Source: Christiangramia sabulilitoris (lineage in GTDB: Bacteria > Bacteroidota > Bacteroidia > Flavobacteriales > Flavobacteriaceae). Taken from it: 64,000 nt of DNA. The DNA is taken from contig NZ_VHSF01000001.1 of assembly GCF_007050985.1 (NCBI RefSeq), positions 62,001-126,000 of the forward strand. The letters are read 5' to 3'. Shown here in pieces: positions 33,706 to 36,784 of the stretch. Numbering within the stretch: the first letter of the stretch is position 1; every line of letters begins with the position of its first letter. The position numbers and the translations under genes were made by a program. Below the pieces are notes generated by a model. It made no database searches and had not been told where the DNA came from. It worked only from the letters and a program-made list of their open reading frames with translations.

Positions 33706-34313
33706 TGAAAATAGTAATTATAGATTACGGAGCCGGGAATATCCAAAGTATCAAATTCGCAATAAAACGACTTGGATACGAGGCGGATCTTAGCAGCGAT
33801 GCTGAGGAAATCCGGAATGCCGATAAAGTTATATTTCCGGGAGTAGGCGAAGCTGGAAGTGCCATGAGAATGCTACGATCAACTGGCCTGGATAAGGTAA
33901 TACCAACGTTGAAACATCCTGTTCTGGGTATCTGTTTGGGAATGCAGTTAATGTGCAACTATTCCGAAGAAGGGGATACAAAAGGGCTGGGGATTTTTGA
34001 TGCTGATGTAAAACGTTTTGATAATTCGGTAAAAGTCCCACAGATTGGATGGAACCAGATCACAAATCTTGATTCACATCTTTTCGATCATGTTGAAAAC
34101 GGCGAATACGTTTACCTTGTACATAGCTATTACGTTCCTGAGTGTGCAGATGAAATTGCCAGAACTGAGTATGGTGTAAACTATTCTACGGCATTACATC
34201 GGGGTAATTTCTACGGAGTCCAGTTTCACCCTGAAAAAAGCAGCAAAACAGGCGAGCAGATACTAAAGAATTTCTTGAAATTGGAGCTGCGAACGAAGAG
34301 CGACGAAGTTTGA
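33705..34313 (+). CDS. hisH: Imidazole glycerol phosphate synthase, glutaminase subunit
   Basis: HisH hydrolyses glutamine and feeds ammonia to HisF. The 202-residue class I glutamine amidotransferase has the nucleophile Cys in GICLGMQLM (near residue 79) and the His-x-Glu pair in VQFHPEKSSK (near residue 180). The last codons, coding RTKSDEV, are made of the heptamer CGAMGAR (CGAAGAG CGACGAA, 34294-34307) that recurs around the four-helix-bundle gene, so the C-terminus may be lengthened by repeat DNA. A 239-bp repeat-rich gap follows before hisA. Confidence 0.96.
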   Translation: MKIVIIDYGAGNIQSIKFAIKRLGYEADLSSDAEEIRNADKVIFPGVGEAGSAMRMLRSTGLDKVIPTLKHPVLGICLGMQLMCNYSEEGDTKGLGIFDADVKRFDNSVKVPQIGWNQITNLDSHLFDHVENGEYVYLVHSYYVPECADEIARTEYGVNYSTALHRGNFYGVQFHPEKSSKTGEQILKNFLKLELRTKSDEV

Positions 34314-34368
34314 AATATGAATTATTGAAAATGAAATTTAGTGTAGTTAAAATATACTAAATATAGCA

Positions 34369-34398: not shown

Positions 34399-34552
34399 AA
34401 TTCCGTAAATCATTATAGTAAAAAAAGTCCTGAATTAAATTCAGGGATTTGAAATAGATTTAAAAAAAATAGATTAAAATGAAATTTTTACTTCAAACCT
34501 TGTACCTCGTATTTCAGAATTCGTACTTCCCACTTCTAAATTCTAACTTCAT
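34399..34552 (+). repeat. Purine-tract, repeat-like filler before hisA
   Basis: There is no ORF here. It holds a hairpin, TCCTGAAT/ATTCAGGGA near 34430-34450 with one bulged C, and from about 34490 a degenerate pattern with repeated GTAC(C/T)TCG and TTCTAA-type units just before the hisA ATG. This looks like decayed simple repeats, not a gene. Confidence 0.35.
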
Positions 34553-35278
34553 ATGCGAATAATACCGGCAATAGATATCATCGAAGGTAAATGCGTAAGG
34601 CTTTCAAAAGGTGATTACAATACCAAGAAAATTTATAATGAGAATCCTCTGGAGGTAGCCAAATCCTTTCAGGACCACGGAATTGAGTATTTACACCTCG
34701 TAGACCTTGATGGCGCAAAGTCTAAACATATAGTGAATCATAAGATCCTGGAACAGATCGCTTCAAAAACCGACCTTAAAGTTGATTTTGGAGGTGGATT
34801 AAAATCTGATAAAGATCTTGAGATCGCTTTCGAAAGTGGAGCTAACCAGATAACCGGTGGTAGTATTGCCGTTAAAGATCCTGAAATATTTCAAAACTGG
34901 ATCCAAAAGTATGGTAGTGATAAGATCATTCTGGGAGCCGATGCAAAGAATAGAAAGATAGCGGTTTCGGGCTGGCTGGAAGATTCAGATAAGGAGATCA
35001 TTCCTTTTATTCAGAACTATGAAGAGAAAGGTGCGAAATATGTGATCTGTACAGATATTTCTAAGGATGGAATGCTGGAAGGCCCGTCATTTGATCTTTA
35101 TGAAGAGATCCTGTCTGAAACTAAAAATATCAATCTTATCGCATCCGGTGGAATCTCAGAATTTGATGAATTACCAAAACTTGCAGAACTGGGTTGTGAA
35201 GGAGTGATCATAGGAAAAGCGATATATGAGAATAGGATTAGTTTGAAACAATTGGAAAATTATATTTTGAAGTTTTGA
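34553..35278 (+). CDS. hisA: Phosphoribosyl-formimino-AICAR ribotide isomerase
   Basis: HisA opens the ribose ring of ProFAR by an Amadori rearrangement. The 241-residue (beta/alpha)8 barrel has the catalytic Asp8 in [20 protein letters not shown] and the second Asp in [16 protein letters not shown] (near residue 130), plus paired phosphate-binding loops, VDFGGGLKS and LIASGGISE. It is a gene duplicate of the hisF barrel, as in other bacteria. It sits in its place in the operon, but repeat-containing DNA separates it on both sides. Confidence 0.97.
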
Positions 35279-35281
35279 ATT

Positions 35282-35314
35282 ACGAACGACGAACGATGAA
35301 CGATGAACGATGAA
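35282..35314 (+). repeat. Heptamer repeat, left side of the four-helix-bundle gene
   Basis: One CGACGAA (35287-35293) and three CGATGAA units (35294-35314) in tandem, after a partial unit, starting 4 bp after the hisA stop. Related inverted units lie on the far side of the next gene. Confidence 0.75.
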
Positions 35315-35356
35315 AAATAGAAGAAAAAGCGAACAGTAAAGTTTTAAAAAGAAATA

Positions 35357-35704
35357 ATGCAGGATTTAAAAAAACGAACCAAAACCTTTGCTTTGGAATG
35401 CTGGAATTTATGCCGACTCATTCCAAAGACCAGGGAATGTGATGCTATAGTTAGACAGTTAATAAGGTCATCAAGTTCAGTTGCGGCAAATTATAGAGCT
35501 GCTAATCGTGCTAAATCTGACAGAGATTTTATAAATAAATTGAAAATTGTAGAAGAAGAAGCAGATGAAAGTCAGTTCTGGCTTGAATTTTTATTTGAAA
35601 CTTTTGAGAATAATCATGAAGAAATTCAGCGTCTCATAAAAGAGTCGGATGAGTTAATTGCTATTAGCGTTGCTTCGATAAAAAAAGTAAAAGCAAGAAT
35701 ATGA
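35357..35704 (+). CDS. Four-helix-bundle protein (S23/23S rRNA intervening-sequence type) inside the his operon
   Basis: A 115-residue all-helical protein with the motifs of the four-helix-bundle/S23 family: CWNLCRLIPKTRECDAIVRQ, then IRSSSSVAANYRAANRAKSD and a late KIVEEEADESQFWLEFLFE. In other bacteria these are encoded in 23S rRNA intervening sequences, or act as accessory (Avd) proteins of diversity-generating retroelements; standalone copies have no known function. Neither an rRNA nor a reverse transcriptase is in the window. It lies between hisA and hisF, with heptamer repeats on both sides in opposite orientation, which suggests it arrived as a cassette. It has no role in histidine synthesis that I can see. 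Confidence 0.85.
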   Translation: MQDLKKRTKTFALECWNLCRLIPKTRECDAIVRQLIRSSSSVAANYRAANRAKSDRDFINKLKIVEEEADESQFWLEFLFETFENNHEEIQRLIKESDELIAISVASIKKVKARI

Positions 35705-35734
35705 AAAATTCAGATTATCAAATAAAAAGATTCA

Positions 35735-35748
35735 CTCGTCGCTCGTCG
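35735..35748 (-). repeat. Inverted heptamer units, right side of the four-helix-bundle gene
   Basis: CTCGTCG twice in tandem; on the minus strand this is CGACGAG twice, the same CGAYGAR heptamer as on the left side but inverted. It lies 23 bp before hisF. Confidence 0.65.
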
Positions 35749-35770
35749 ATCCAACTTCAAAATTCATAAG

Positions 35771-36526
35771 ATGCTAACGAAACGAATTATACCCTGTCTT
35801 GATATCAAAAATGGAAGGACAGTTAAAGGAGTCAATTTTATTGACCTTAGAGATGCGGGAGATCCGGTGGAACTCGCCGCGGCGTATGCCGAGAAGGGAG
35901 CGGATGAACTGGTTTTCCTTGATATTTCGGCTACCGAAGAAAAACGAAAAACCCTGGCTAAGCTTGTTCTGGACGTCGCTGAGCAACTCAATATCCCATT
36001 TACCGTGGGTGGCGGAATCTCTTCAGTAGAAGATGTTGATATATTGCTTAAGAATGGAGCAGATAAGGTTTCTATTAATTCTTCCGCAGTCAAAAATCCT
36101 GACCTAATTAACCAGCTTTCCGATAAATTTGGAAGTCAGTGTGTAGTGGTGGCCATAGACGCAAAGAATATCGATGGAAAATGGAAAGTTCACCTTGTAG
36201 GGGGGAAAGTTCCTACCGATCTTGATCTTTTTGAATGGGCTAAAGAAGTTGAGCTTCGCGGAGCAGGAGAAATTCTCTTTACTTCAATGGATCATGATGG
36301 TACCAAAAATGGCTTTGCCAATGAAGCTCTGGCCAGACTGTCTGAGGAACTGAATATTCCTATTATTGCTTCTGGAGGAGCAGGAAATATTCAGCATTTC
36401 CAGGATACATTCCAGAAAGGTAAAGCAGATGCGGCTTTAGCTGCCAGTGTTTTCCATTTTAAAGAAATAGAGATCTCAGATCTCAAGAACCAACTAAAAA
36501 CAGCCGGAATACCGGTGAGAATATAA
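35771..36526 (+). CDS. hisF: Imidazole glycerol phosphate synthase, cyclase subunit
   Basis: HisF makes imidazole glycerol phosphate and AICAR from PRFAR and ammonia supplied by HisH. The 251-residue barrel has catalytic Asp11 in [19 protein letters not shown] and Asp130 in the region of [13 protein letters not shown], and phosphate-binding loops FTVGGGISS and IIASGGAGN. The spacing to hisH is unusual (more than 1.4 kb, with hisA and the four-helix-bundle gene between), though the subunits form a heterodimer. Confidence 0.97.
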
Positions 36527-36531
36527 TTTAA

Positions 36532-36606
36532 CGTCATGCTGAATTTATTTCAGCATCTCAGAAAGCAAAAGATCCTGAAACTCCCGAAGCTTCGAGACAG
36601 GATGAC
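36532..36606 (+). repeat. REP-like element 1
   Basis: A 75-bp element made of two hairpins. The left arm is ATGCTGAA/TTCAGCAT (from 36535), the right arm ATCCTG/CAGGAT (36572-36603) with an inner CGAAGCTTCG. It begins CGTCA and ends ATGAC, so its ends are inverted. Confidence 0.75.
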
Positions 36607-36624
36607 ATAAAGAATAAATTTAAG

Positions 36625-36660: not shown

Positions 36661-36747
36661 CGTCACCCTGAACTTGTTTCAGGGTCTCAAAATTATATAT
36701 GAATTCAACAGATGCTGAAACTCCCGAAGCTTCGGGACAGCATGACG
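36661..36747 (+). repeat. REP-like element 2
   Basis: An 87-bp element. The left arm is ACCCTGAA/TTCAGGGT (from 36665), the right arm ATGCTG/CAGCAT (36711-36744) with the perfect palindrome TCCCGAAGCTTCGGGA (36722-36737). In frame it would code the peptide RHPELVSGS, known as a translation of this repeat type in many bacteria. Confidence 0.8.
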
Positions 36748-36784
36748 CAATTAAAAATAGCTTTTCGAATAAGAATCAAAAATT

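Follow-up and report, generated by a model that had tools for sequence, protein, structure and literature searches.

An S23 gene bracketed by seven-base arrays in a his operon: a probable member of a common but unrecognised type of small selfish cassette

In the window analysed here (the whole 64-kb stretch of DNA, from genome G000) a small gene of the S23 type is located between hisA and hisF and is flanked by short tandem repeats, and the question arises what kind of unit this is and how it came to stand inside an operon. The preliminary description regarded the gene and its repeats as one unit, which was borne out, similar units being found elsewhere in the same genome and far beyond it.

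The S23 unit of the his operon

The S23 identity of the gene between hisA and hisF was confirmed by two profiles, since its product matches PF05635 (E 4.1e-15, 56.3 bits against a curated cut-off of 33.8) and TIGR02436 (E 6.7e-23, 81 bits against a cut-off of 24). In the search that returned PF05635 this family was the sole match above cut-off, with no match to a site-specific endonuclease or a reverse transcriptase. The AlphaFold model of the protein (pLDDT 95.4, pTM 0.88) consists of four helices arranged as a four-helix bundle of the 2rld/2gsc type; Foldseek placed 2rld and 2gsc best, followed by Avd (4dwl) and a DGR ribonucleoprotein. The predicted fold appears to be that of Avd, the DGR accessory protein (4dwl, 8ub7; TM 0.75, Foldseek E only 0.04). 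The crystal entries 2gsc and 2rld, both S23 relatives, contain five chains each, which is a further likeness to Avd, and the title of the Xcc0516 structure paper, as given in the reference list of PMC3936711, speaks of five four-helix bundles. By analogy with the five-chain relatives we infer that the window protein is probably a homopentamer.

The S23 gene has the same orientation as hisA and hisF, and its co-transcription with the his operon would be expected; nothing suggests that it serves histidine synthesis. The attenuation control formerly proposed for the operon found no support, as Rfam at gathering thresholds returned one tRNA and no his leader in the 64-kb window. Inside the S23 unit the ORF list of the window contains no further open reading frame of 60 aa or more. 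The coordinates of the unit and its surroundings are collected in Table 1.

Table 1. Features of the hisH-hisF region in window coordinates.
Feature	Position	Strand	Remarks
Left arm of gene-less hisH-hisA bracket	34288-34318	+	last codons of hisH; delimited by eye
Right arm of gene-less hisH-hisA bracket	34497-34550	-	just 5' of hisA start codon; lag-7 score 17 (C1:96497-96550)
hisA, upstream neighbour	34553-35278	+	name from the preliminary description; served as query for relatives
TTTTGAAGTT, left half of exact 10-base inverted pair	35265-35274	+	last codons of hisA; by eye
Left heptad array, 7-base period	35266-35314	+	begins in hisA 3' end; lag-7 score 26
S23 / 23S_rRNA_IVP four-helix-bundle gene, 115 aa	35357-35704	+	ORF list, profile search, structure model
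Right heptad array, inverted	35732-35769	-	stops just 5' of hisF start codon; lag-7 score 11 (C1:97732-97769)
AACTTCAAAA, right half of exact 10-base inverted pair	35753-35762	-	partner of TTTTGAAGTT
hisF, downstream neighbour	35771-36526	+	ORF list; presumed hisF, as in the preliminary description

The repeats are arranged as originally reported, with four tandem CGAYGAA units on the left (CGACGAA and then three copies of CGATGAA, 35287-35314, plus strand) and two inverted CGAYGAG units on the right (both CGACGAG, 35735-35748, minus strand). The left array (C1:97266-97314) has the top lag-7 score in the 864 kb of its genome that were scanned. Three or more tandem CGAYGAR units occur once in the window and in 0/200 Markov-random windows, and CGAYGAR alone is not enriched (20 occurrences vs 16.6 expected, matched by 23/100 shuffles). 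The left flank compared with the reverse complement of the right flank gave a score of 19, which was equalled by none of 2000 shuffles and by a single one of the 153 right flanks taken from S23 loci elsewhere. Seeding of the arms from the coding end of the upstream gene was considered and rejected, being striking at his and weak elsewhere (p 0.015 when the stop codon is counted, 0.066 when it is left out). By eye, two palindromic REP-like repeats were also noticed in the interval that separates hisF from the gene after it (36530-36610 and 36664-36750), and a palindrome like this pair occupies the hisA-hisF gap of many relatives in place of the S23 gene.

A second bracket, which lacks a gene, is located between hisH and hisA. 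The end of hisH at 34294-34307, previously read as two heptamers of the same type, is CGAAGAG CGACGAA; the second unit fits CGAYGAR and the first does not, and CGACGAA proved to be part of the left arm of this bracket. An S23 gene is present at the same junction in 6 of 24 genus genomes; the copies of G019, G003, and G010 are intact and those of G004, G008, and G021 broken. In G018 the junction measures 7 bp and HisH terminates earlier. Beyond its own junction the nearest rows to the window S23 protein in alignment A2 are these hisH-hisA copies, with 60-63% identity (next best 50%).

The intervening sequence (IVS) of Coxiella burnetii is one of the nearest described systems. According to PMC4990558 it is a unit of about 430 nt in 23S rRNA with an S23p ORF, a 28-bp stem of inverted ends, and 2-3 tandem GACAGAT heptamers beside the ORF, whose copy number varies among strains; its occurrence is sporadic, horizontal acquisition was inferred, one strain has a large deletion in the ORF, and the authors think that S23p is not produced in vivo. 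The proposed link to rRNA intervening sequences holds to the extent that the same parts, namely an S23 ORF, complementary inverted ends, and tandem heptamers by the ORF, are all present in the his unit, tandem heptamers being known as an IVS trait from the Coxiella case only. The IVS, however, lies inside rRNA and is cut by RNase III, whereas the his unit stands between hisA and hisF and not in 23S rRNA, units of its type lie between protein-coding genes, and their arms have no G-U bias; unlike GACAGAT, a distinct 7-mer is found at nearly every locus.

Seven-base arrays beside S23 genes

PF05635 was matched in 232/296 sampled genomes of the window's phylum (220 above the curated cut-off), often in several copies. 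Most of the sampled S23 genes, in Bacteroidota and in several other phyla, adjoin 7-bp and sometimes 8-bp arrays, usually as inverted pairs. In the pooled count, which left the plasmid loci aside and drew on the 228 loci with usable flanks among 232 distinct ones, a 7- or 8-base array with a score of 9 or more was found on at least one side of the gene at 204/228 loci and on both sides at 95, and 24 loci had no array beside the S23 gene; control lags at the same 228 loci gave 8 (lags 10/11) and 13 (lags 5/13).

The self-match at lag 7 in the genus was 0.436 on the left and 0.417 on the right within 70 bp of the gene, compared with 0.282 and 0.264 further out and 0.286 inside the gene (98 rows from 96 loci, with 96 distinct proteins in the arm-inversion comparison; L007, L025, L072, and L126, which have short or interrupted genes, gave no row, and L069, L091, L092, L103, and L119 contributed more than one each). 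It was 0.40-0.44 in the family/phylum set (58 rows from 59 loci, L137 being without a row), 0.400 and 0.411 in named Bacteroidota (62 rows), and 0.420 and 0.434 in other phyla (16 loci), the last two groups being drawn from one set of 79 rows from 80 loci, which also included L251 and in which L233 and L285 gave no row. The figures for other phyla were computed without L251, whose masked left flank had inflated earlier values; at these loci an array of score 9 or more was present in 14/16 at lags 7/8 and in 0/16 at lags 10/11. Strong inverted pairs were found in a Clostridia MAG (L283) and in Ignavibacteriota (L245), and no inverted array pair was seen at the S23 gene of L242 (Nitrospirota).

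One S23 protein matched 19 plasmid records, mostly cyanobacterial by their listed genera. The eight cyanobacterial plasmid loci examined among them had a lag-7 self-match of 0.51, one of them very strong, and in seven of them the array at lag 7 or 8 scored at least 12, L377 having none; by eye the arms are inverted in L379-L382 and direct in L376, L378, and L383. Carriage of S23 units by phages was dropped as a candidate, the phage collection giving no match to the one S23 protein queried. On these plasmids an S23 gene with clean inverted GGGAGTA arrays stands between two ribonucleotide reductase genes, on the opposite strand to both (L379:983-1351), another lies between cas10 and a Cmr3-family gene (L382:980-1336), and a third lies between cas6 and cas4 and is preceded on the left by roughly twelve AAAAGCT units in tandem (L378:989-1348). 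Eighteen 23S_rRNA_IVP genes in cas loci were reported earlier and taken as having a CRISPR-Cas-associated function (PMC3936711); they represent the same family placed among operon genes as the his S23 and as the cas10-Cmr3 and cas6-cas4 copies here, and repeats go unmentioned in the accessible part of that report.

The rule is a 7-base period and not the word CGAYGAR, the 7-mer being nearly private to each locus. From the 193 strong arrays 134 unit consensuses were obtained, sharing a weak NNNNAGT core (information 2.16, against up to 1.73 in 12 permuted controls); this rules out one universal heptamer and with it the original definition of the unit by CGAYGAR. The other S23 genes of the window's genome carry, by eye, arrays of different 7-mers, so that a count of CGAYGAR near them would miss the pattern; the enrichment anticipated there was absent by eye for that heptamer and present by measurement for the 7-base periodicity. 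At 22 of 154 loci the best period is 8 in place of 7, and these are clustered on the S23 tree (11 changes vs at least 20 in 200 shuffles).

Heptameric arrays as such have been described: TAACTGA arrays are known from Beggiatoaceae, Cyanobacteria, and five members of the Bacteroidetes (MacGregor 2015, PMC4679880), among them Gramella forsetii, in which other heptamers occur nearby, and a relative with shorter intergenic regions has no obvious repeats. Like the arrays of S23 genes they are heptameric, intergenic, and adjoining start codons, but they concern one fixed 7-mer, and in the accessible text of PMC4679880 no inverted pairs around a gene are described and the terms S23 and four helix are absent. 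PMC11270868 gave no match for S23 or repeat terms, and among the matches listed for the open literature no paper described 7-base arrays flanking S23 genes in pairs as a general feature, and the Coxiella IVS paper was the one to connect S23 genes with such arrays.

Arrays were also located away from S23 genes. In the 864 kb of the window's genome four of the five arrays with a score of 14 or more lie at S23 or former S23 junctions, and gene-less brackets or scars are marked by two weaker ones, at a junction presumed to be atpA-atpG and at another where six relatives have an S23 gene. Three lag-7 arrays with a score of 14 or more are present in two genomes without S23 (400 kb), and the expectation that such genomes lack 7-base arrays failed; in the S23-rich and AT-rich genome G154 only one of the 17 arrays at lags 7/8 has an S23 gene within 100 bp and most stand alone (4, 3, and 4 arrays at control lags 5, 11, and 13). 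Thus the S23 gene predicts arrays well, and the reverse is true in some genomes only. A gene-less inverted TATTGAG bracket of about 100 bp was noted in the window's genome (G000:C1:1214793-1214814), at this presumed atpA-atpG junction. Gene-less palindromes of two abutting 7-base arrays in G154 (C1:1899340-1899398 and 621708-621778) are possibly scars or an independent class of hairpin repeat.

Occupancy and inheritance of the junctions

Among species of one genus the S23 copy at a junction may be intact, broken, reduced to its arms, or absent. The hisA-hisF junction was indeed found both with and without S23 among relatives: within 24 genus genomes it holds an intact gene in G000, G019, and G003, a broken one in G021, a remnant in G002, and an arm-only scar in G016, the remaining 18 being without an S23-sized insert. 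At fadB-fadA the S23 gene is present in 13 of the 22 genomes with a recovered junction.

S23 proteins cluster by insertion site, with 21 label changes for 19 labels in 121 rows against at least 84 changes in 100 shuffles (in this tree the his copies from the 24-genome junction comparison took the place of L006 and L118-L120). Such grouping by junction indicates that free transposition is rare or old; the tree gives it no support, and there is little sign of the spread around the genome that was at first supposed. Junction s13, with two distant S23 subfamilies, is the exception; from the second S23 gene of L069, L091, and L103 one junction was seen to carry, depending on the species, a gene from either of two distant S23 subfamilies, and it was probably hit more than once. 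Median dN/dS was 0.07-0.25 in 10 of 12 groups with usable pairs and 0.41 and 0.59 in the other two, many dS values being near saturation; S23 genes are mostly under purifying selection, which a cellular function could also explain.

Relatedness of S23 copies was compared with that of their hosts. In the fad-site S23 tree two groups are supported (SH-aLRT 93 and 90) and the remaining copies stay unresolved, and arm types assigned by eye fit these three sets in 12/12, with G021 as an outlier. The types do not fit the host tree (8 changes, shuffled mean 6.83, 500/500 shuffles as low or lower), and the presence of the gene retains some fit to it (5 changes, shuffled mean 7.21, 34/500 as low). In 289 same-junction genome pairs, which are not independent and in some groups mix subfamilies, S23 identity was uncoupled from hisA identity (rho 0.08) and that of the flanking genes tracked it (rho 0.42). 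By junction group the S23 value was at most 0.12 in groups 0, 3, 7, and 9, 0.26-0.32 in groups 1, 2, and 6, and 0.81, 0.76, and 0.66 in groups 4, 5, and 10, where S23 similarity tracks hisA.

The S23 gene normally evolves faster than its neighbours (median identity 0.661 vs 0.786 and 0.799 for the flanks), and several S23 pairs exceed their own flanks, as in G022/G023 (0.915 vs 0.796 and 0.712), where the left flank is elevated in the alignment. One shared tract in G011/G003 extends roughly 50-100 bp into both flanking genes, and in G019/G007 the tract covers a part of the S23 gene and excludes the arms, which is fitted better by recombination inside the gene than by transfer of the whole unit. 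The his copies of G000 and G019 (S23 identity 0.887, HisA 0.946) look vertically inherited, their pace of divergence being compatible with it. As regards homing, site fidelity is evident and uncoupling from hosts is seen at some junctions and absent at others, and homologous recombination is also possible.

Behaviour of the arms and possible explanations

Within a locus the left and right arms tend to change jointly, and the mismatches between them are strand-symmetric. Scored as inverted repeats, own arms reached a mean of 15.66, compared with 10.10 for swapped arms, 10.92 for own arms in direct orientation, and 9.09 for control segments, and 58/96 own scores were above the 99th percentile of controls. 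In 18 junction groups (116 loci) own pairing remained better than swapped pairing within the same junction (15.48 vs 13.29; own higher in 83/116), the Wilcoxon p of 2.6e-7 being merely indicative because the loci are related. G exceeded C in the left flank of 137/154 loci and C exceeded G in the right flank of 124/154. Mismatches between arms at 109 loci comprised 103 of G-U and 127 of A-C types (p 0.24, expected G-U share 0.488); without a G-U excess, pairing of the sense RNA is probably not what maintains the likeness of the arms.

According to these data the his unit, consisting of a left 7-bp array, the S23 gene, and an inverted right array, is probably an IVS-like selfish cassette residing at a gene junction of an operon; this degree of belief is meant for the reading as a whole, of which the movement step and the pentamer's role are inferred. 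Cassettes would spread between species mainly into the same junction and not by free transposition, by means of homologous recombination or a homing-like process using the flanks. The arms may be rewritten in place at the DNA level through 7-base slippage and copying between arms, and such rewriting, as proposed, would let them remain inverted copies despite sequence drift. The S23 protein, an Avd-like pentamer to judge by its relatives, probably binds nucleic acid at the arms and may set the 7-base step. The his copy would then be an old resident cassette, and its hisH-hisA neighbour would have lost its gene.

A bolder version, which is rather unlikely, makes S23 the pentameric organiser of unrecognised minimal mobile cassettes with about five 7-base units per arm in a TRAP-like manner, each cassette writing its own private inverted repeat and the rRNA IVSs being a special case. 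One 7-base unit would be held per subunit around the weak NNNNAGT core, and this geometry would drive the rewriting of both arms at the DNA level. If it is true, these cassettes are perhaps among the commonest mobile ones in Bacteroidota, and the IVSs of 23S rRNA are cassettes that landed in rRNA.

Unlikely, and a little more so, is an RNA-hairpin cassette, where the arms would be kept because they pair in the mRNA and loop out the S23 ORF, which would lead to an RNase III cut, as in the 23S rRNA IVSs, or to translational coupling of the neighbours. Own arms do pair best in predicted folds (19.2 bp vs 10.2 for swapped arms and 8.5 for control segments, 154 loci), 145/154 S23 genes have an open frame of the same strand upstream within 170 bp, with a further one downstream in 124, and the stem of the Coxiella IVS is cleaved by RNase III in vitro (PMC4990558). 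However, such pairing predicts an excess of G-U over A-C mismatches, and a slight, non-significant deficit was observed at the 109 loci, by which RNA pairing was rejected as the force behind the arms; the direct 7-base periodicity is also left unexplained.

It is quite improbable that S23 is an ordinary operon member, i.e., a vertically inherited host gene with a regulatory function at each operon and the arms as its operator. Purifying selection in 10 of 12 groups, the grouping of S23 by junction, its agreement with hisA relatedness in groups 4, 5, and 10, and the order fadB-S23-fadA also outside the family (L158 and L176, which belong to a 27-locus junction group) would fit, but absence, decay, and gene-less arms occur within one genus, S23 and host relatedness have no overall correlation, and the host operons are unrelated (presumably his, fad, folD, def, and hemN, and cas by annotation). 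Chance or generic simple repeats, generated by slippage in AT-rich intergenic regions with S23 being incidental, are hardly credible. It is true that 7- and 8-base arrays do occur away from S23 and in S23-free genomes and that repeat-rich bacteria commonly have repeats of 7 bases (Mrazek 2007, quoted in PMC4679880), but control periods, control distances, and swapped arms fail to reproduce the pattern, and the inverted orientation and concerted change of the arms also stand against it.

In summary, the S23 gene of the his operon, its brackets, and the like layout around most of its sampled relatives point to a common but unrecognised type of small selfish cassette. We know of no established function of PF05635, and the architecture shared by most of its sampled copies would turn this orphan family into a tractable class of elements. 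Such a class of cassettes would link the rRNA IVSs, the heptamer arrays of several phyla, and the S23 genes in cas loci, and it raises the question of what produces 7-base arrays that are private to a locus, mostly inverted, and altered in concert.
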